The notes below the pieces were generated by a model. The model saw only the letters and a list, made by a program, of their open reading frames with translations, searched no databases and had not been told where the DNA came from. Of a stretch of 64,000 nt of DNA, positions 37,184-45,580 are shown in pieces. A program made the translations under genes and the position numbers. Source of the DNA: Natronosalvus vescus (GTDB lineage: Archaea; Halobacteriota; Halobacteria; Halobacteriales; Natrialbaceae). The stretch is from the NCBI RefSeq assembly GCF_023973145.1, contig NZ_CP099546.1, positions 1,054,001 through 1,118,000 on the forward strand, written 5' to 3'. Positions within the stretch are counted from its first letter, which is position 1. Every line of letters starts with the position of its first letter.

Positions 37184-38941
37184 TCACACGCGTGTGTTTC
37201 GATCGTGAACGTTCCCATCGTAGACGACGCCCCGTTCGCCGTCGATCGTGACGATCTGGCCGTCCTCGAGGCCGTCGATCCCTGCATCGCTGACCATCGG
37301 AACACGAGTTTCGCGGGCGATGAGCGCCGGGTAGCCTGTCATCCCGGGACGTTCGTCGATAATTCCGCCAATTGTTCCGACGTCGCCCGTGAACTCGGCA
37401 TCGAAGTGTTCGTCCAGGACGAGAATCGCCCCTGCTGGCACGTCGGTCAGATCCCCATCGTGGACGCGTGTAGCGGCCCCCGTCGCTCGACCGTCGACGA
37501 CGACGCGGCCGGTCGTCACGGCGTCGGCGGCGACGTGCACCTTCAGCATGTTCGTCGTGTTCGCGCCCTCGAGTTCGGTCATCATCCCACAGAGAACCAC
37601 GACGGTGTCCCCGCTTTCAGCCGCCCCGGCGTCGAGGGCCGCCTGCACGGCTTTCTCGACGACGGCGTCGGCACCCTGGTTGGAGACACGGGCGTATACG
37701 GGCGTTACACCCCACGAGAGAGCGAGTTGTCGTCGCACCCGATGGCTCTGTGTCGACGCGACGACGGGAACGCCGGGTCGGTACTTCGCCGTTTTTCGAG
37801 CGGTGTAGCCGGACTCGGTCGCCGCTACGACGGCGTCAGCGCCGATGTCGCGAGCCAGATAGCGCGCCGATCGAGCCAGTGCGTCGGTTCGGGCGTCGCC
37901 CGCCGTCGGGACGCGTTGCTCGAGCAACTCGCGATACTCCCCGGAGGATTCGACCTGTCTGACGATGCTGTCCATCGTCTCGACGACGGCCGTCGGATGA
38001 TCGCCGACGGCTGTCTCCGCCGAGAGCATCACCGCGTCGGTGCCGTCGAGGACGGCGTTTGCCACATCGGAGGCCTCGGCGCGCGTCGGTCGTCGGGAGT
38101 GTACCATCGAATCGAGCATCTCGGTCGCCGTGATAACCGGGCTACCGGCGGCTTTGGCCTGGCGGATGATCCGTTTCTGAATCATCGGTACGTCCTCCAT
38201 CGGACATTCGACGCCGAGGTCGCCTCGAGCCACCATGATCCCGTAGGAGGCGTCGATGATCTCCTCGAGGTTTTCGACGGCTCCCGCGCGTTCGATCTTC
38301 GAGATGATGGGAATCTCGGCGTCGAACTCCTCGAGCGTCTCGCTGACCTCGTAGACGTCGTCGGCGTCCCGGACGAAACTCGCGGCGACGAAGTCGGCCT
38401 CCGTTTCGGCTGCGAGCTCGAGGTCGCGGCGATCCTTCTCGGTAACGATGTCGAGGTCGAGCGCGACGCCGGGCAGGTTGACGCCTTTTCGTCCTCCGAG
38501 ATCGCCCCCGGTTTCGACGGTGGCGTGAACCGTCTCACCGTCGGTTTCGGTGACGACTGTCTCGATCAGTCCGTCGTCCAGGAGGATCCGATCGCCCGGT
38601 TCGACGGCCCTGATCGACATCGAGAGGCCGACTTCGGTGGGCGACGTCTCGCCGCCCTCGACGAAGCGAATCTCGGTGCCGCTCTCGAGTGGTACCGTCT
38701 TGCCGGTCGGGAGCGGCGCGGTTCGAATCTCCGGCCCCTGCGTGTCCAGCATGGTTGCGACGGGGCTGTCAGTATCCTGGTCGACGTCCTTGACCCGCTC
38801 GATCAACTCGGCTCGATCCTTGATGGTGCCATGGCTCGCGTTCAGCCGGGCAACGGCCATCCCGGCCTCCGACAGATCGCGAATCGCCGAGCGACTGTTC
38901 GTCGCCGGCCCCAGTGTACAGACGATCTTCGCGTTTCTCAT
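37184..38941 (-). CDS. pyk: Pyruvate kinase
   Basis: The protein has 585 residues. N-terminal MRNAKIVCTLGPATNSRSAI, MAVARLNASHG and ATMLDTQGPEIRTAP are typical. The catalytic region has IISKIERAGAVENLEEII, IMVARGDLGVECPMEDVP and ATEMLDSMVHSRRPTRAEASDVANAVLDGTDAVML. The C-terminal extra 100 residues (GGIIDERPGMTGYPALIARE and the VIDGLEDGQIVTIDG part) match the PEP-utilising-enzyme-like phosphohistidine domain found fused to pyruvate kinase in haloarchaea and some bacteria. It makes ATP and pyruvate at the end of glycolysis. Confidence 0.93.
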   Translation of the reverse strand: MRNAKIVCTLGPATNSRSAIRDLSEAGMAVARLNASHGTIKDRAELIERVKDVDQDTDSPVATMLDTQGPEIRTAPLPTGKTVPLESGTEIRFVEGGETSPTEVGLSMSIRAVEPGDRILLDDGLIETVVTETDGETVHATVETGGDLGGRKGVNLPGVALDLDIVTEKDRRDLELAAETEADFVAASFVRDADDVYEVSETLEEFDAEIPIISKIERAGAVENLEEIIDASYGIMVARGDLGVECPMEDVPMIQKRIIRQAKAAGSPVITATEMLDSMVHSRRPTRAEASDVANAVLDGTDAVMLSAETAVGDHPTAVVETMDSIVRQVESSGEYRELLEQRVPTAGDARTDALARSARYLARDIGADAVVAATESGYTARKTAKYRPGVPVVASTQSHRVRRQLALSWGVTPVYARVSNQGADAVVEKAVQAALDAGAAESGDTVVVLCGMMTELEGANTTNMLKVHVAADAVTTGRVVVDGRATGAATRVHDGDLTDVPAGAILVLDEHFDAEFTGDVGTIGGIIDERPGMTGYPALIARETRVPMVSDAGIDGLEDGQIVTIDGERGVVYDGNVHDRNTRV

Positions 38942-39515: not shown

Positions 39516-40004
39516 TTACGACGCGATAACCGGATACCGAAGGAGATACCGGATCACCCCGAGCAGGTATGCGAGAATCCAGAAAAAGACGTAGCCAAAG
39601 ACGCCGACGCGGAGTCGCCGCCGCCAGGCCGGCATGTGCTCGTGGAGGTCGTCGAGATCGACGTCCTGAGTCGGATCGCCGTACAGGTCGTGGGCGAGTT
39701 TGACCTGCAAAATGCGGACGATCCCTGTCAGCCCAACAAGTAACATCGCGTACGCCTGAAGGCCGAAAAAGGCGTGAACGGCGACGATCCCACCGATCTG
39801 ATTCGCCACTCGAGGAATCATCCAGGTGACGACGGGGATCGTGTTCAACGCCAGGCCGATACCGATCACTTGCAGGTGGTAAACGAGGACGTCCCAGCTG
39901 ACGACGTCGGCGTCGATCATGATCCACGCCCCGTACAGGTAGAACGGAAAGCTGGCGGTAACCATTACGAGCGCCACGGTTGCGACCGCCAGCTCAGACA
40001 CCAT
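39516..40004 (-). CDS. Integral membrane protein (DUF7321-like)
   Basis: The protein has 162 residues and about four TM segments: SELAVATVALVMVTASFPFYLYG, WDVLVYHLQVIGIGLAL, VAVHAFFGLQAYAMLLVGLTGI and GVFGYVFFWILAYLLGV. It has two conserved His (YHLQV and VHAFFG) near the membrane, which may bind haem. It lies just beside, but on the opposite strand from, the cytochrome bc cluster. The DUF7321 family commonly accompanies that cluster (recalled). Confidence 0.65.
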   Translation of the reverse strand: MVSELAVATVALVMVTASFPFYLYGAWIMIDADVVSWDVLVYHLQVIGIGLALNTIPVVTWMIPRVANQIGGIVAVHAFFGLQAYAMLLVGLTGIVRILQVKLAHDLYGDPTQDVDLDDLHEHMPAWRRRLRVGVFGYVFFWILAYLLGVIRYLLRYPVIAS

Positions 40005-40273
40005 ACTCGAGATGTCGGGAGGGGTGAGGAATAAACGAAGCGAAACGCTCGTGAACGGCGGTCGGCCAGGGGATAGCAGCTGTCTCGTTCCACCTGGATG
40101 TCACGAAACTCCATTCAACGTAGTACGATTCGACGCAATACGATTGAGCACTCGTCGGCTGCCTTCGCTCGAGACAGCGACAGCACGGGACGATCCCCTG
40201 TGTCAGGATGTCTCGACTCACGTGTGAGTCGCAACCGTCACGCTAAGGGAGCCCCAACACGAAGGAGGACGTA

Positions 40274-41098
40274 ATGAGCGACGCTTCCGAGGAGGGTGCC
40301 GGCGAACACGTTGGAGACGCATCCACGCCGCCGGACGCGACGGGGGCCACAGCCCACACAGACGAAGACGACCTCGAGGAGCTTCGCAAACGGGTCGAAG
40401 AGAAGTACGACTTCGAGAATTTCGGCGCTGCCGACATGGCCGAAATGTCCCCGGAGGAGTGGGACGTCGCCTTCGACCCGGATACCTGGATCACCGGCGA
40501 CGACCTGCTCGAGCGGGTCGAAAAGGAGCTCAAGGCCAGAGTCGCCGATCGAGAGGTGTTTGCGACCCTCGAGTACGCCGAGGTTGAGGGGCGACGGAGC
40601 CTGGTTGCCTACTCCGACACCGACTACGCTATCGTGTACCCCAACGGAACCGTCGAAGGGCGCGGAACGGTCGTCCGGGACGTGAAACCAACTGTCGCAC
40701 TGTGTTCGATGGACAGCTACGACGTCGAAGAGCCACCCGAGAACTGGCAGCTCCCGGATCCCGGTGAACTTCCGGAAGAACAGAGTGAGTTGGGGAACTG
40801 GATGCTCCAGTTGCTGGCGTTTTCGCAGTTGATTATCGGGCTCGTCGCGATCGGTATCTGGATCTACCAGGGACTCGGGTCACAGCTCGTCCTCGGCGTC
40901 GCCGGGATGATTCTGATCGTCATTTCGTTCCTCCTGTTTCTGATGGTGGCCAACGCCCGCCTCTCCGATCGGTTCCGAACCGAGGAGTACGAGAGTCGGC
41001 TCCGGTCGATCGGTTCCGGTTCGCGCCCGTCGTTTCTGCCGATCGACGACGAGGCGTTCGAAACCACTCGGACAGATCGCTCACAGCTCGAGGAGTAG
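40274..41098 (+). CDS. DUF7319-like protein with two TM segments
   Basis: The protein has 274 residues; GGAGG five to nine bases before the ATG is a strong ribosome site. The soluble N-terminal 170 residues are acidic with a helical part (DDLEELRKRVEEKYDFE) and a beta part (VEGRGTVVRDVKPTVALCSM). Two TM segments follow near 180-230. The C-terminal 40 residues are cytoplasmic. It opens the bc cluster block and precedes halocyanin. Confidence 0.7.
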   Translation: MSDASEEGAGEHVGDASTPPDATGATAHTDEDDLEELRKRVEEKYDFENFGAADMAEMSPEEWDVAFDPDTWITGDDLLERVEKELKARVADREVFATLEYAEVEGRRSLVAYSDTDYAIVYPNGTVEGRGTVVRDVKPTVALCSMDSYDVEEPPENWQLPDPGELPEEQSELGNWMLQLLAFSQLIIGLVAIGIWIYQGLGSQLVLGVAGMILIVISFLLFLMVANARLSDRFRTEEYESRLRSIGSGSRPSFLPIDDEAFETTRTDRSQLEE

Positions 41099-41246
41099 CT
41101 CCGTCTGTGAGATGGTGCGTCGGGAGTAGCGATTCGTTTCGGATCGAGAATCGACGCTGTACTGGACTCGAGCCGATCACCAGCGTCGCCGCCTGGGCCG
41201 TGTAGTAACTGCTCGTTGTCGATGGCTGGCCAACGGCGGCATCGGT

Positions 41247-41262
41247 GGGTTTAAGCAAACCC
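41247..41262 (+). promoter_or_regulatory. Inverted repeat with TATA-like core before halocyanin
   Basis: GGGTTT, spacer AAGC, AAACCC: a perfect 6-bp-arm inverted repeat. The TTTAAG core is about 30 nt before the halocyanin ATG at 41282, where a TATA box is expected in a leaderless gene, so the repeat may both set and control transcription. Confidence 0.45.
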
Positions 41263-41281
41263 GTTCCTGAGTCCACATTGT

Positions 41282-41947
41282 ATGAAGAGGCGGGAGTTTA
41301 TGGTAGCGGCCAGCGGCGTTTCCGGGGGTGCCGTAGCCGCAACTGCTGCGACACCCGTCGCGGCTCAAGACGATGAGAACGGTGACGGCACCGAAACGAA
41401 CGGTGACGAGGAGACCGAAGACGGCGAGAACGGCGATGCCGAAAATGGTGAGAACGGCGACACCGAGAACGGTAACGGCAACGGTGCCGCTACTGGTGGC
41501 GGCACCGAGTACGTCGAGGTCGGTGACAACTACTACGAACCAGACGAGCTGACCATCGAACCCGGAACCACTGTCGTCTGGGAGTGGGTCGGACAGGCCG
41601 ATCACAACGTCGAACCAACCGAACAGCCGGAAGGAGCCGACTGGGAGGGACACACGGATCTGAAAGCCGACGGCGACTACGAACACACGTTCGACGTCGA
41701 AGGGACGTACGATTACGTCTGCACCCCCCACGTCGGCGTCGGTATGGTCGCTTCTATCGACGTCACAGAAGATGCTGACGAAGCCGCTGCGATGGCGGAC
41801 GTCGACATCGACGAACTCGGCGTACCGATCCAGAAGCACTTCGTCGGCATCGCATCGTTCCTCGCGATTTTCGTCTCGCTCGTCTTCACGTTCTACTTGC
41901 TGAAATACGGTGAATCAGCGAACACCAGTAGTCCAGGGAGGAAATAA
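41282..41947 (+). CDS. Halocyanin-type blue copper protein with C-terminal membrane anchor
   Basis: The protein has 221 residues. The signal (MKRREFMVAASGVSGGAVAA) is a twin-Arg start. A long acidic linker (residues 30-75) follows. The cupredoxin domain has VEVGDNYYEPDELTIEPG, the Cu ligand His in QADHNVEP and the C...H...M set in YVCTPHVGVGM. A C-terminal TM segment (FVGIASFLAIFVSLVFTFYLL) anchors it. It takes electrons from the bc-type complex encoded downstream. Confidence 0.88.
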   Translation: MKRREFMVAASGVSGGAVAATAATPVAAQDDENGDGTETNGDEETEDGENGDAENGENGDTENGNGNGAATGGGTEYVEVGDNYYEPDELTIEPGTTVVWEWVGQADHNVEPTEQPEGADWEGHTDLKADGDYEHTFDVEGTYDYVCTPHVGVGMVASIDVTEDADEAAAMADVDIDELGVPIQKHFVGIASFLAIFVSLVFTFYLLKYGESANTSSPGRK

Positions 41948-41949
41948 AC

Positions 41950-42354
41950 ATGTCATCGTCAGGAAGCACGTACGGCGATATTCATCGGTACGAACCGCCT
42001 CGAGAGAGTACGGCGGCAGCGATCGCGATCGTCCTGTTGACGTTCGTGCAGATCATCTTCGTCTCCCTGTTCGTCTACGGCCTCGCCGCAAACTGGGCGA
42101 TCGGTGGCCTCGACGCAGGCACCGGCAACATGCTCCTCGGATTCCTGCTGTCGGCGATTTTCATCAACCTCGGATTCATCCTCTTGCTCTACCGCAAGGA
42201 GTTTCTGCCGGACGTGATGATCGTCAAGAAGCGCCGTCGCAAGTGGGAAGACCTCTACATTCGCGAGGAGGACGTCGAAGGAACGACGATCGTGGATGGC
42301 ACAGGTGCATGGGACACGGTCAAACGCGCAATCTACCCCTATTACAAACGATAA
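41950..42354 (+). CDS. Small membrane protein in cytochrome bc cluster (DUF7318-like)
   Basis: The protein has 134 residues; the Shine-Dalgarno GGAGG sits in the end of the halocyanin gene. Two TM segments (AIAIVLLTFVQIIFVSLFVYGL and MLLGFLLSAIFINLGFILLLY) are followed by a cytoplasmic basic/acidic tail ending AIYPYYKR. It is conserved in this gene order in haloarchaea; likely an accessory subunit. Confidence 0.7.
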   Translation: MSSSGSTYGDIHRYEPPRESTAAAIAIVLLTFVQIIFVSLFVYGLAANWAIGGLDAGTGNMLLGFLLSAIFINLGFILLLYRKEFLPDVMIVKKRRRKWEDLYIREEDVEGTTIVDGTGAWDTVKRAIYPYYKR

Positions 42355-42357
42355 ACA

Positions 42358-43230
42358 ATGGCTAACGACGACAAATACCCAGTCGAATCGGATCGTCGAC
42401 GCTTCGTGAAAGGCGTGGTCGGCGGATCCGTCCTTTCGGGCGTGATGGCGACCGGTGCAGTCACCGTCTCCAGCGCGACCAACCCGACCGGTGGCGGTGG
42501 CGGTGTGATGAACTACTTCGGTGCGAACCGAACCCTCGGGCCGGCCCCACGCGGCCTCCCCCAGATCCCAATGGAGATCAACGACGACGGGGAATTGCTC
42601 GGCGTATGGCCGGAACCCGAGAGCGAAACGCTCGCCGACGGTTCCGAGTACGTCAGATCCGAAGCCGAAATCGGTGGCGTCGAGTACACGACCGAGTGGT
42701 ACCAGTACTGTGGCCTCCAGACCTTCGATGGTGTCAATCCGGAAGCGGACGGCGAGGACGCCGTGTTCCGCTACGACGCTGGGACGTACGACTGGATGGA
42801 CGACGTGGGCCAGGGCGAACCGATGCTGACCGAAGACTTCGAGGATTATGCCGAGTGGGACACCCAGATCGGTGACCCCGGACTCGGCAAGCCAGCCACC
42901 GGAACCTGGCGCTCCCAGAACGTCCCACCGGAACAGACGGTGCCGATCCTGGTCATCAAAACCGACCAGATCGAACTGGACGAGATGGACGACCGAGCCA
43001 GAGAGTGGGTCGAAGCCGCCTGTCCCGAAGACGACGACGGTGGTCGATACATCGCGTTCGTCAACAAGTGTACGCACTTCTGTTGTGTCCCGGGCTACCG
43101 GAACCTGGCAGGTGCACCCGACTTCGGGGCCGACAACAAGATTTACTGTAACTGCCACAACTCGGTGTACGACCCGTTCGACATCGTCGAAGAACAGTTC
43201 GTGTCGCTACCGCGACCGGAGGACAACTGA
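42358..43230 (+). CDS. Rieske iron-sulfur protein of a cytochrome bc-type complex
   Basis: The protein has 290 residues. An N-terminal signal/anchor (RRRFVKGVVGGSVLSGVMA) is followed by an extracytoplasmic region and a C-terminal Rieske domain: KCTHFCCVPGYRN and YCNCHNSVYDP give two Cys and two His ligands for a [2Fe-2S] cluster. The usual second glycine of CTHxGC is a Cys here. It passes electrons from quinol to the copper protein. Its stop overlaps the next start as TGATG. Confidence 0.88.
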   Translation: MANDDKYPVESDRRRFVKGVVGGSVLSGVMATGAVTVSSATNPTGGGGGVMNYFGANRTLGPAPRGLPQIPMEINDDGELLGVWPEPESETLADGSEYVRSEAEIGGVEYTTEWYQYCGLQTFDGVNPEADGEDAVFRYDAGTYDWMDDVGQGEPMLTEDFEDYAEWDTQIGDPGLGKPATGTWRSQNVPPEQTVPILVIKTDQIELDEMDDRAREWVEAACPEDDDGGRYIAFVNKCTHFCCVPGYRNLAGAPDFGADNKIYCNCHNSVYDPFDIVEEQFVSLPRPEDN

Positions 43231-44024
43231 TGAGTCTCGAGCGCAAAGACGAACACGACCACGGTGCCTGGCTCGCCGAGCGGGATCTCTCACTCATCGA
43301 GAAGACGTACCTGATGAGTCTGATCTGGCTCGACAAACGCTTCAGGCTCGTCGACTACCTCGAGTTGCTGGAGGACATGTACTACAAGATCAACCTCCAG
43401 ATGCCAAAGAGCCACACCGAACAGTACAATCTTGACAACAAGTTCTGGTACTGGTACCCGCTGTACGCACTCGGATCGTTCTCCGTGGTCGCGTATATCG
43501 TGGCGGCGATTAGTGGTGCCTTGCTCGGCTTCTACTACGCGCCGTCGACGGCGGGCGAGACGCCCGAAGCCTACCAGACCATCGTTGCGATCATGAAGGA
43601 TCTGAACTTCGGATTCATGCTCCGGAGTATCCACCGCTGGTCGGCCCAGGTCATGACCGCCGCGGTGTTCTTGCACATGCTCCGGGTGTACTTCACCGGC
43701 GCGTACAAGGAACCCCGCGAGGTCAACTGGCTGATCGGCATCATCCTGCTCAGCCTGACGATGGTCTTCGGGTACACCGGCTACCTGCTGCCGTGGAATC
43801 AGCTGGCGTTCTGGGCCGGCCAGATCGGCGTCGAGATGGCGCTCGTCGTCCCGTTCGTCGGCGAATGGACGGCACAGCTGCTGTTCGGTGGCTTCAGTCT
43901 CGGGCAGCCAACACTCCAGCGGATGTACATCCTGCACGTGTTCGTGTTGCCGTTCGTCGTCACAGCCCTGATCGCACTGCACATTGGCATCGTCTGGATG
44001 CAAGGAATCGCGGAACCACACTGA
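43230..44024 (+). CDS. Cytochrome b, N-terminal part
   Basis: The protein has 264 residues and four to five TM segments. The haem-binding motifs are MLRSIHRWSAQVMTAAVFLHMLRVY (two His) and VLPFVVTALIALHIGIVWM (a further His). WNQLAFWAGQIG and TGYLLPWN match cytochrome b around the Qo site. It corresponds to b6-like N-terminal half of the bc1/b6f complex. It overlaps the Rieske stop and is followed six bases later by the C-terminal half. Confidence 0.9.
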   Translation: MSLERKDEHDHGAWLAERDLSLIEKTYLMSLIWLDKRFRLVDYLELLEDMYYKINLQMPKSHTEQYNLDNKFWYWYPLYALGSFSVVAYIVAAISGALLGFYYAPSTAGETPEAYQTIVAIMKDLNFGFMLRSIHRWSAQVMTAAVFLHMLRVYFTGAYKEPREVNWLIGIILLSLTMVFGYTGYLLPWNQLAFWAGQIGVEMALVVPFVGEWTAQLLFGGFSLGQPTLQRMYILHVFVLPFVVTALIALHIGIVWMQGIAEPH

Positions 44025-44030
44025 TCGACC

Positions 44031-44792
44031 ATGAGCGACACAGACAACGACGTCCGAACCGATGGAAGCGGCCCCGGCATCGTCGCCCCCGACGACGAGG
44101 TGCCGACCTGGAGCGAGCGCAAGGAGCGAACCACGGGTCTCTCGAGGCTCACCTACGAGTACTTCGAGCGGGCTCGCCGGGAGGATCAGGATCTCCGCCA
44201 GGAGTCGAGTTACGTCGAGCGTGACGTGCTCGGCTTCCCGACCTGGCCACACGAGACGATACGCAATCTCGCGCTGGCGAGTTTCTTCACCGGCATGTTG
44301 CTGTTTCTGTCCGCGATGTTGCCACCCCACCTCGGGGATCCGGCGAATCCGGCGGAGACGCCCTCGGTGATCTTGCCCGACTGGTATCTGTACTGGTCGT
44401 TCGGACTGCTCCACCTCGAGCCGCTGAACCCAGAGCTGGCAATCGCCGGTGGGGATAAGATCATGTCCGACGAACTGTACGGCGTGCTGGCGAACGTCGT
44501 CGTCGTCGGGGCTATCGCAATCGTCCCGTTCCTGAACAAGGGGAGCGCTCGCCGTCCCGTCGAGGAGCCCTTCTGGGCTGCCGTCGGCGTCGGCGGTGTC
44601 GTCTTCGCGTTCACCATGAGTATCCTGCCGATCCAGGACATGTTCCCGTGGGGGGTCGCCATTACGTTCGACCTGGCGTTCTTCCTGCCGCTGGTCGCCG
44701 CCGCGATCACCTATGCGGTGTTGAAGACGATGCGGGAGGGGTACATGTACGACCTGAACAAGCGGTACTATCGGTTGCGGCCGCCGCGGTAG
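44031..44792 (+). CDS. Cytochrome b, C-terminal part (subunit IV-like)
   Basis: The protein has 253 residues. A soluble N-terminal part precedes the membrane part: SFFTGMLLFLSAMLPPHLGDPANP, PDWYLYWSFGLLHLEPLNPE (PDWY is the conserved Qo-site PEWY-like motif), and three TM segments. It completes the cytochrome b of the two-piece form. Confidence 0.88.
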   Translation: MSDTDNDVRTDGSGPGIVAPDDEVPTWSERKERTTGLSRLTYEYFERARREDQDLRQESSYVERDVLGFPTWPHETIRNLALASFFTGMLLFLSAMLPPHLGDPANPAETPSVILPDWYLYWSFGLLHLEPLNPELAIAGGDKIMSDELYGVLANVVVVGAIAIVPFLNKGSARRPVEEPFWAAVGVGGVVFAFTMSILPIQDMFPWGVAITFDLAFFLPLVAAAITYAVLKTMREGYMYDLNKRYYRLRPPR

Positions 44793-44958
44793 GGTCGTCG
44801 CGTTTTCCGATTTCCCGTGTTCGTGGTTTCGGGTATCCAGGCTGTTAGGCTTCGAACTGCCCTCGAGCATGCCGAGAACGATTGCCTGTCCTCGAGCGTG
44901 CCGGAGGACGCCACGGGCAAGTCACAGTACTCTTCTCCCGTCACGCTGTAGGAGTGGT

Positions 44959-45327
44959 ATGAGCGGTTCAGATTCGGACACAGATCCACCGGCGGCTGCC
45001 GATGAAGCCGACACCGATCCCGAGGACGGCCCTCGAGTCGGTGCGTCGGGCAAGCGCGAGGTGATCGTGCCGATGCGGTTGTACAAGACGATTACCGTGT
45101 TCTCGACGATCATCGCGGTCGTCGGTGTCCTCGGTGGGTTCATCCTCCTTGACGTGGCGACTGACCGGACGCAGGCGGCCGCGTCGGACGTGAGCATCGG
45201 AGTGGCACTACTCGGTGTCGGATTGATCGCCGGCGGCGCCGCTACCTACGCCTTTTCGACGCGGTTTCGGACGGCAGGAATGGGAAACGCTAAAGACGAC
45301 GCCGACGAAGGATCACACAATGGCTGA
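44959..45327 (+). CDS. Small membrane protein DUF7315-like
   Basis: The ATG at 44959 gives 122 residues; GGAG sits near the start. The N-terminal 35 residues are acidic, and two TM segments follow (ITVFSTIIAVVGVLGGFILLDVAT and IGVALLGVGLIAGGAATYAF). Its stop overlaps the next start by eight bases, so they are co-translated. Probably an accessory subunit of the bc-type complex. Confidence 0.7.
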   Translation: MSGSDSDTDPPAAADEADTDPEDGPRVGASGKREVIVPMRLYKTITVFSTIIAVVGVLGGFILLDVATDRTQAAASDVSIGVALLGVGLIAGGAATYAFSTRFRTAGMGNAKDDADEGSHNG

Positions 45328-45580
45328 CGAATTCATCAAAGGATTCGCCATCTTCACCGCGGGCATCCTGGTGTGGATGACGTTTGCAGGCTGGTACAAC
45401 ACGCCGTCGTTCTACGACACCCAACTCGTTGGGCCGAATCCAGAAGATCCCGGGACGTACACTGCAATGGCACTGGTCGTCAAAGACGCCGCCCTCTATT
45501 TCGCACTGCTCGGTGCGCTCACCTTCTGGGTCGTGATTCCGGCCGGTCGACGCGCTCGAGCACACTACGCGGGTAACTGA
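45320..45580 (+). CDS. Small membrane protein DUF7314-like
   Basis: The protein has 86 residues and two TM segments (FIKGFAIFTAGILVWMTFAGW and ALYFALLGALTFWVVIPAG). It overlaps the previous gene, and the pair ends the bc cluster. Function unknown, presumed accessory subunit. Confidence 0.7.
   Translation: MADEFIKGFAIFTAGILVWMTFAGWYNTPSFYDTQLVGPNPEDPGTYTAMALVVKDAALYFALLGALTFWVVIPAGRRARAHYAGN

Follow-up and report, generated by a model that had tools for sequence, protein, structure and literature searches.

We report that the Rieske domain of a haloarchaeal cytochrome bc-type complex appears, from the sequence comparisons set out here, to be circularly permuted. The gene lies in a 64,000-nucleotide (nt) stretch of the Natronosalvus vescus genome (contig NZ_CP099546.1, positions 1,054,001 to 1,118,000; hereafter the window), in which a block of nine genes at positions 39516 to 45580 encodes the Rieske protein, a split cytochrome b, a halocyanin and five membrane proteins of the DUF7314, DUF7315, DUF7318, DUF7319 and DUF7321 families. 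The host genome is 3.84 Mb in size, and its nearest named relative, judged by the cytochrome b of the block, is Natronosalvus hydrolyticus (94%). In the same block, the halocyanin probably took the place of a cytochrome c, and DUF7318 has relatives in other bc complexes, among them the other haloarchaeal bc complex, which we take to be the one named NarA-NarB-NarC. The rearranged Rieske protein, a cytochrome c in the halocyanin slot of a distant relative and the relatives of DUF7318 go beyond what an earlier note on this block had proposed. The Rieske gene and the parts of it that matter for the argument are located as follows.

42358..43230, + strand: Rieske [2Fe-2S] protein (PetA), apparently circularly permuted
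42520..42600, + strand: Rieske residues 55-81, the strand segment with GPAPR and the Pro loop, which usual Rieske proteins have at the C-terminus (profile and hhalign)
42709..42711, + strand: codon of Rieske Cys118 (in WYQYCG), a member of an extra conserved cysteine pair
43045..43182, + strand: Rieske residues 230-275, with the cluster loops CTHFCC and CNCHNS (profile and hhalign)
43081..43083, + strand: codon of Rieske Cys242 (in CTHFCC), the partner in the extra cysteine pair

The window Rieske protein had no Pfam match at E 0.001 and matched NCBIfam models weakly, and a PF00355 search of its own genome returned three other loci and missed it. Its cluster ligands and disulfide cysteines (C238, H240, C243, C264, C266 and H267) are invariant in 17 aligned sequences (alignment A9). 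For counts of motifs, we used those named loci in which seven or more of the nine families are present, excluding L182 with its broken-looking DUF7319 (73/80), together with the window; 54 loci of this set have a Rieske gene in the examined stretch, and the cluster motifs C-x-H and C-x-C-H were found in all 54. A swapped order was seen when the window protein was compared by blastp with the Rieske protein of G310, a member of the same phylum but another class with a draft genome 73% complete: window residues 232-281 aligned with residues 144-189, but residues 52-120 aligned with residues 193-235. The same order was obtained with a profile of 27 usual-order proteins, 24 of them from loci with an unsplit cytochrome b, two being actinobacterial QcrA proteins and one the G310 protein. 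In 53 of the 54 haloarchaeal proteins, the N-terminal segment matched a later part of this profile than did the C-terminal part, the sole exception (L137) being shortened by start choice. For the window protein, residues 55-81 fell on profile positions 171-197 and residues 230-275 on positions 134-170, two ranges that abut. With a G310-free profile and a strict rule, 49/54 were scored as reversed, and the four that this rule called collinear are also reversed because their N-terminal segment matched from position 179-180 and their core from position 112-136; the one left over is a shortened sequence. Alignment by hhalign placed window residues 195-282 on template positions 123-198 (probability 97.7, E 2.3e-12) and residues 54-82 on positions 183-211 (probability 94.9, E 4.5e-8).

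The position of the Pro-loop stretch, spelled GPAPRGxPQIP in the haloarchaeal set and GGPxxRxLPQLP in the comparison proteins, agreed with this order. It stands before loop 1 in 53/54 haloarchaeal proteins and after loop 2 in none (0/54), while in the 27 comparison proteins the pattern never placed it ahead of loop 1 and placed it behind loop 2 in 26; the 27th (L098) has GGPAPSPLPQLP after loop 2, as read by eye. These counts were made with a wide pattern, as a narrower motif caught only 8/27 usual-order proteins on account of the variable spelling. After loop 2, there remain 18-37 residues in 52/54 haloarchaeal proteins, compared with 46-63 in the 27 usual-order proteins, and the two longer haloarchaeal tails are low-complexity. 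Two extra cysteines, Cys242 (CTH[FY]CC) and Cys118 ([YF]CG), are present together in all 54 proteins and in G310, and neither is found in the other 26 of the 27 comparison proteins. When the haloarchaeal profile was compared with solved structures, its positions 223-271 aligned with residues 322-363 and its positions 61-81 with residues 370-390 of Corynebacterium QcrA (7q21_A; whole-sequence E 2.4e-5), and for 7rh5_Y, 6hwh_A and 6adq_A the top stretch paired the N-terminal segment with the C-terminal part of the chain, none of these passing alone.

Each of the 82 genomes with the block has a match spanning residue 5 or earlier to residue 287 or later of the window Rieske protein, so the swapped order is common to them. 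In a search of the phylum, 36/294 genomes matched, and full-length matches occurred only in the class of the window (35 genomes), the 36th being G310, which matched in the core alone (residues 223-277). We read the permutation as the outcome of a duplication followed by trimming of the ends, of which the overlap of the tail motif LPRP with Pro-loop positions would be the scar. No description of a circularly permuted Rieske protein was found in the literature searched, part of it judged by title among the papers listed; Baymann et al. 2012, reportedly the key phylogeny of haloarchaeal Rieske/cytochrome b complexes, lay outside that search and could mention one. Separately, a second full-length permuted Rieske copy was observed away from the first in five genomes (G012:C1:1399942-1400778, G016:C17:96690-97538, G050:C69:385241-386089, G055:C1:327281-328117 and G108:C1:1011758-1012636), and a partial one in G003.

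The other eight genes of the block are as follows.

39516..40004, - strand: DUF7321, membrane protein with four helices, transcribed divergently from the operon; PF24007 E 6.2e-76
40274..41098, + strand: DUF7319, with a soluble alpha/beta part ahead of two membrane helices; PF24003 E 8.5e-91
41282..41947, + strand: halocyanin, type-1 copper domain (PF00127 E 6.2e-14), with a C-terminal hydrophobic helix at residues 183-210
41950..42354, + strand: DUF7318, two-helix membrane protein; PF24002 E 4.2e-67
43230..44024, + strand: cytochrome b N-terminal half (PetB); PF00033 E 1.5e-45
44031..44792, + strand: cytochrome b C-terminal half (PetD); PF00032 E 6.6e-9; Qo motif PDWY; four hydrophobic segments
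44959..45327, + strand: DUF7315, two-helix membrane protein; PF23997 E 2.4e-30, scored with the longer start
45320..45580, + strand: DUF7314, two-helix membrane protein; PF23996 E 6.2e-38; 8 nt overlap with DUF7315

The halocyanin carries a Tat-type signal, as read by eye, and its NCBIfam halocyanin domain match is below the family cut-off. The copper ligands H..C-x2-H-x4-M are present in 66 of 73 halocyanins, and of the remaining seven, five have the Met at a different spacing and two are shortened by start choice. The halocyanin gene lies at most 60 nt from DUF7318 in 73/74 loci, and all 73 proteins end in a hydrophobic helix. The CxxCH motif was absent from all nine families in the examined loci, the rest of the genome not having been searched. 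The earlier note had proposed that an anchored halocyanin replaces cytochrome c1, and this idea is backed by the G310 genome, where the order on the contig (L191/L195) is cytochrome c, a DUF7318 relative, Rieske, cytochrome b N-terminal half and cytochrome b C-terminal half. The protein in the halocyanin slot is here a cytochrome c (PF00034 E 1.3e-12) that has a hydrophobic segment at its C-terminus, and the cytochrome b N-terminal half is 48% identical to that of the window. Because an anchored cytochrome c thus fills the same operon slot with the same topology, the sequences suggest that halocyanin probably took the place of a cytochrome c. The G310 contig encodes an archaeal shikimate kinase above the NCBI cut-off, and its G+C content (0.682) fits the bin, in which twelve other contigs have 0.655-0.688. 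Weighing against this proposal, the cytochrome c in the slot is known from one contig of one draft genome, and the cytochrome b kind was found in 1/58 genomes of that class. DUF7314, DUF7315, DUF7319 and DUF7321 are all missing from the G310 contig. A fused DUF7318-Rieske gene in G310, suspected from the length of the open frame, was ruled out, the two being separate genes. We also observed that the G310 cytochrome b C-terminal half (L191:10096-11067) has a 4Fe-4S dicluster domain fused to its C-terminus, an uncommon companion for a cytochrome b of bc type; the best NCBIfam matches are QmoC-like and HdrC-like and fall below cut-off.

On sequence evidence, DUF7318 is firmly related to the protein in the NarA position of the other haloarchaeal bc complex and probably related to the membrane hairpin of actinobacterial QcrA. 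The Pfam DUF7318 model matched 9/9 NarA-position proteins (E 1.1e-4 to 0.093), the weakest being that of L102, for which NapE scores better (0.013). The alignments of the two families matched each other by hhalign (probability 94.4, E 8.5e-8), and they share a hairpin end, F-[LIM]-P-x-[VI]-x-[VI]-[VA]-[KE]-x-R, recognised by eye in the alignments. When the 12,417 open reading frames (ORFs) of all loci were scanned with DUF7318, with overlapping loci counted more than once, the matches at E <0.1 beyond the close members were the G310 protein, the ORF 5' of Rieske in 20/25 loci of the other bc complex, Nonomuraea QcrA and two unrelated L192 ORFs. In the direction of QcrA, all 32 DUF7318 members (A1) matched the NCBIfam model of the actinobacterial protein below its cut-off, with E values no higher than 1, the best being 8.9e-6 and that of the window protein 1.7e-4, and the Pfam DUF7318 model matched Nonomuraea QcrA at 0.075. 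We consider this link probable because the alignments are in register and are bridged by the G310 protein, which matched DUF7318 (PF24002) at E 2.8e-10 and QcrA_N at 0.034.

The QcrA comparisons are weak when taken singly, which counts against the link: the E value was 1.8 with a PDB profile, hhalign with two QcrA proteins gave a probability of 12.6% (E 0.0023), and NarA-position proteins matched QcrA at E 0.13. The QcrA model matched 0/10 NarA-position proteins at E 0.1 and did not match the G310 protein at 0.01; a second, unrelated NCBIfam family matched 16/32 DUF7318 members (best 0.0021). The window DUF7318 had no match to PF19297, the QcrA N-terminal domain, at E 0.001. A second non-halobacterial DUF7318 match, in G352, was rejected as chance since the surrounding ORFs showed no bc complex, and for Thermus FbcD, a candidate further relative, no Thermus-type bc operon was present among the plasmid-collection matches examined. 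The QcrA subunit of the Corynebacterium complex is described as fixed in place (PMC8795186, available part).

All nine genes were recovered at the places given in the earlier note, and its five DUF names proved correct (Pfam E 8.5e-91 for DUF7319 to 2.4e-30 for DUF7315). The start of DUF7315 was moved from 44869 to 44959, an ATG 3' of a ribosome-binding-like AGGAG. The tight overlaps that the note had read as a sign of real subunits hold for the run from halocyanin through the cytochrome b C-terminal half, where the successive gaps (halocyanin, DUF7318, Rieske, cytochrome b N, cytochrome b C) are 2, 3, -1 and 6 nt, and for DUF7315/DUF7314; they do not extend across the 183 nt between DUF7319 and halocyanin, the 166 nt between the cytochrome b C-terminal half and DUF7315, or to DUF7321 on the opposite strand. 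Just outside the block near DUF7321 lies a GYD-domain protein (PF08734; 39003-39341, +), which shows no sign of complex membership, with a pyruvate kinase close to it at 37184-38941; on the other side, a Thi4-family protein (PF01946; 47887-48813) is an unrelated neighbour.

The co-occurrence of the genes was determined in 116 genomes of the window's class. Cytochrome b of the block type was present in 82 and absent from 34, and DUF7318, DUF7314, DUF7315 and the Rieske protein were each found in 82/116 genomes, while DUF7319 and DUF7321 were each found in 81/116, both missing from G021. The remaining 34 genomes had no member of the set among the matches listed, in counts that ignore kinship, and four genomes outside the 82 (G001, G002, G010 and G039) had only the other, unsplit cytochrome b kind. 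Presence varies within at least three families (f1, f2 and f3), so the set was lost or gained together more than once. The window genome belongs to f1, most sampled genera of which are without the whole block (e.g. G004, G005 and G020), and it is therefore an exception in its family; three f1 genera (g1, g7 and g12) carry the block.

Linkage was examined in 80 loci with both DUF7318 and the cytochrome b N-terminal half (79 named loci and the window). The named loci share one gene order, with or without Rieske. Median gaps were 0 nt for halocyanin-DUF7318, 2 nt for DUF7318-Rieske, 2 nt for Rieske-cytochrome b N, 4 nt for cytochrome b N-cytochrome b C, 31 nt for cytochrome b C-DUF7315 and -8 nt for DUF7315-DUF7314, with a looser 82 nt for DUF7319-halocyanin. 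In 79/80 loci, no more than 60 nt separate a halocyanin gene from DUF7318 (gap -4 to 6 nt). In G068, DUF7321 is ~16 kb away from the rest, and in G074, DUF7314/DUF7315 are on a separate contig. The recurrent order and the joint presence or absence in 116 genomes show that the gene arrangement is far beyond chance. In the available part of the respective papers, an eight-ORF transcript of H. volcanii, mostly of hypothetical proteins, begins at HVO_0845 (PMC6490895), and petB and petD of this species are HVO_0842 and HVO_0841 (PMC8305020); given the HVO numbering from petB/petD and the order in nine Haloferax loci, this transcript should be the present operon. The Rieske gene of H. volcanii is HVO_2620. 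In one Haloferax locus, the ORF 3' of DUF7314 is DUF7313 (PF23995; L153:10413-10856), which may belong to the set and lies outside the block of the window.

Of the notion that the DUF proteins are real subunits, the part supported here is that their genes are part of the gene set of the complex, in a near all-or-none manner across 116 genomes; DUF7319 and DUF7321, both missing from G021, a small genome that keeps DUF7314/DUF7315 and the core, could instead be assembly factors. No paper naming DUF7314, DUF7315, DUF7318, DUF7319 or DUF7321 was found in the literature searched. AlphaFold2 gave a model of DUF7321 with mean pLDDT 86.3, and DUF7319 was modelled (mean pLDDT 82.2) as a small alpha/beta domain with two helices; the best Foldseek matches to solved folds were at E 0.83 and E 0.33, respectively, neither of them significant. 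For DUF7321, VIA-align Z scores up to 11.6 are in the range of unrelated helical bundles, a likeness to cytochrome b561 or oxidase subunit III (Z ~9) is at a meaningless level for such bundles, and an Rcf2 match (E 0.98) is at chance level. A role of DUF7321 as a cytochrome b561-type heme-b protein was dropped despite the invariant His 43 and His 77 (A2), because both are close to where successive helices begin and the other two helices are without an invariant His.

In the cytochrome b, the two His pairs and the Qo motif PDWY are present in 74/74 loci, and His 135, 149, 236 and 251 of the window PetB are candidate heme ligands. The window PetB has no cysteine; the PetB of cytochrome b6f has one for the covalent heme ci. 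As a side observation, five loci with unsplit cytochrome b (L098-L102; 38-43% identity to the window N-terminal half) lie beside halocyanin genes and are perhaps a further bc-type variant.

We regard it as probable that the block encodes the haloarchaeal complex III and that this complex works as follows, most likely as a menaquinol:halocyanin oxidoreductase with a Q cycle. The split cytochrome b (PetB and PetD, with PDWY) would oxidise menaquinol at its Qo site. One electron would pass to the Rieske cluster and on to a dedicated halocyanin tethered by its C-terminal helix, and the second would travel via the b hemes to Qi. This halocyanin would stand in for cytochrome c1 or f and hand electrons towards an oxidase. 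In the permuted Rieske protein, a Tat-type anchor and a Gly-rich hinge would be followed by the normally C-terminal segment and then by the cluster loops, with the chain ending soon after the second of these, and Cys118 and Cys242 may form a staple between the cluster loop and the transposed segment. DUF7318, a stand-alone protein related to the NarA-position protein and probably to the hairpin of QcrA, is probably packed on cytochrome b. For DUF7314 and DUF7315 a role as small subunits is probable, and DUF7319 and DUF7321 may be subunits or assembly factors. The partners of haloarchaeal petABC are given as menaquinone and probably halocyanin in the available part of PMC8305020, which also states that petABC is missing from roughly one in three haloarchaea, above all from Natrialbales, and that their electron flow is an open question. 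For the full combination, in which the Rieske protein is permuted and disulfide-stapled, c1/f is replaced by a tethered copper protein, a QcrA-type anchor is the separate subunit DUF7318 and up to four further lineage-specific membrane subunits are present, we consider the chances to be about even.

Several observations weigh against the permutation. The transposed segment is short (~27 profile positions), individual stretches compared with solved structures (7q21_A) are weak on their own, and un-permuting was not clearly favoured when rotated sequences were scored: the scores went from 19.7 to 20.1 bits for the window, 25.2 to 28.6 for L107, 19.1 to 25.3 for L124, 13.9 to 14.2 for L133 and 18.8 to 19.1 for L156, and usual-order controls also gained (G310, 29.8 to 30.1; a QcrA, 146.8 to 148.5), with no gain for L102. 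Such uninformative rotation scores would fit a complex III as proposed here with an unpermuted Rieske protein, in which residues 55-121 form an insertion whose GPAPR arose by convergence or was borrowed, and the LPRP of the tail serves as the genuine Pro loop of a domain that has been shortened; consistent with this, the hhalign alignment of the tail (to query 282) reaches template position 198, so that LPRP overlaps Pro-loop positions 183-198. However, the N-terminal segment also matches the next strand (to template 211) and, in G310, on to W-Y-x-Y-C-G at the C-terminus, the short tails after loop 2 differ from those of the 27 usual-order proteins, and the overlap at the seam is the remnant expected of duplication and end trimming. 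We therefore find an unpermuted domain unlikely.

The composition of the complex is open to two further explanations. The DUF proteins might be a linked kit for assembly or maintenance (heme or copper insertion, or Tat-dependent assembly of Rieske and halocyanin) around an ordinary three- or four-subunit complex, as would suit G021, which keeps the core without DUF7319 and DUF7321, the divergent transcription of DUF7321, and the G310 contig with its four missing families. For DUF7318 this fits poorly, as it lies among the core genes, its relatives sit in bc-complex operons, and where Rieske has moved away it directly adjoins cytochrome b (24/24, gap 1-7 nt); we hold the kit to be possible but doubtful. 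Those same 24 of 80 loci, with Rieske outside the block, are themselves a point against our main reading. Alternatively, the adjacent halocyanin could be a mere shuttle or oxidase partner, with an unrecognised heme protein, that of the purified haloarchaeal 'cytochrome bc', as the true replacement of c1. In favour of this, haloarchaea have yielded purified c-type heme proteins for which no gene is identified, according to the available parts of PMC4429474 and PMC8305020. Yet no CxxCH occurs in the nine families of the examined loci, the halocyanin is tied to DUF7318 in nearly every locus and ends in a helix like that of the G310 cytochrome c, and the purified protein is speculated to be SdhD (PMC8305020, available part), which makes such a heme protein, in our judgement, quite improbable.

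That the complex exists, has a split cytochrome b and uses halocyanin as a carrier is already known. Within the literature searched, the permuted Rieske protein, the exchange of cytochrome c for halocyanin in one slot, the placing of DUF7318 among NarA/QcrA-type proteins and the near all-or-none DUF set are apparently new. Rieske/cytochrome b complexes belong to the most conserved machines in respiration and photosynthesis, and their usual mechanism depends centrally on a swing of the Rieske head on its N-terminal hinge. If true, a class-wide natural permutation of the head would be a ready-made test of the roles of hinge and termini, and with its new attachment the head would move differently, or not at all, between cytochrome b and the acceptor. 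A copper protein in a cytochrome c slot bears on the 'haloarchaea paradox', in which c-type heme is seen and no gene is found (PMC4429474 and PMC8305020, in the parts available), and the grouping of DUF7318 with NarA-position proteins and QcrA suggests a likely role for a family of unknown function.

Compared with known systems, the block has the same genes as the haloarchaeal petABD complex III, with its b6f-like split cytochrome b and Rieske protein (PMC8305020, available part); the DUF proteins, a C-terminally anchored operon halocyanin and a permuted Rieske are not mentioned in that part of the paper. The novel composition claimed in the earlier note is thus half right: the complex was known, and the block is not special to the window genome because most sampled haloarchaea share it. 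The other haloarchaeal bc complex (loci L064-L067, L084-L103 and L184) resembles the block in the order small membrane protein, Rieske, cytochrome b, and its small protein has a DUF7318-like hairpin, but its cytochrome b is unsplit, its Rieske protein has the usual order without the CC motif, and its NarA-position protein has two helices more than DUF7318; in L184, a molybdopterin oxidoreductase follows. Cytochrome b6f shares the split cytochrome b, and its outside acceptor is a blue copper protein; in contrast, the block has a PetD part with four hydrophobic segments, a PetB without the cysteine, no cytochrome f in the loci and an anchored copper protein. In the actinobacterial QcrCAB (bcc) complex (7q21, 6hwh and 6adq), the membrane helices of QcrA precede the Rieske domain, and DUF7318 aligns with one helix and the following stretch; unlike in the block, the hairpin domain is fused to Rieske, which has the usual order, and a diheme QcrC is present instead of halocyanin. 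Finally, the G310 operon has the same succession of anchored carrier, DUF7318 relative, Rieske with CxHxCC and split cytochrome b, and differs from the block in its cytochrome c carrier, its usual-order Rieske and the 4Fe-4S dicluster on the cytochrome b C-terminal part.

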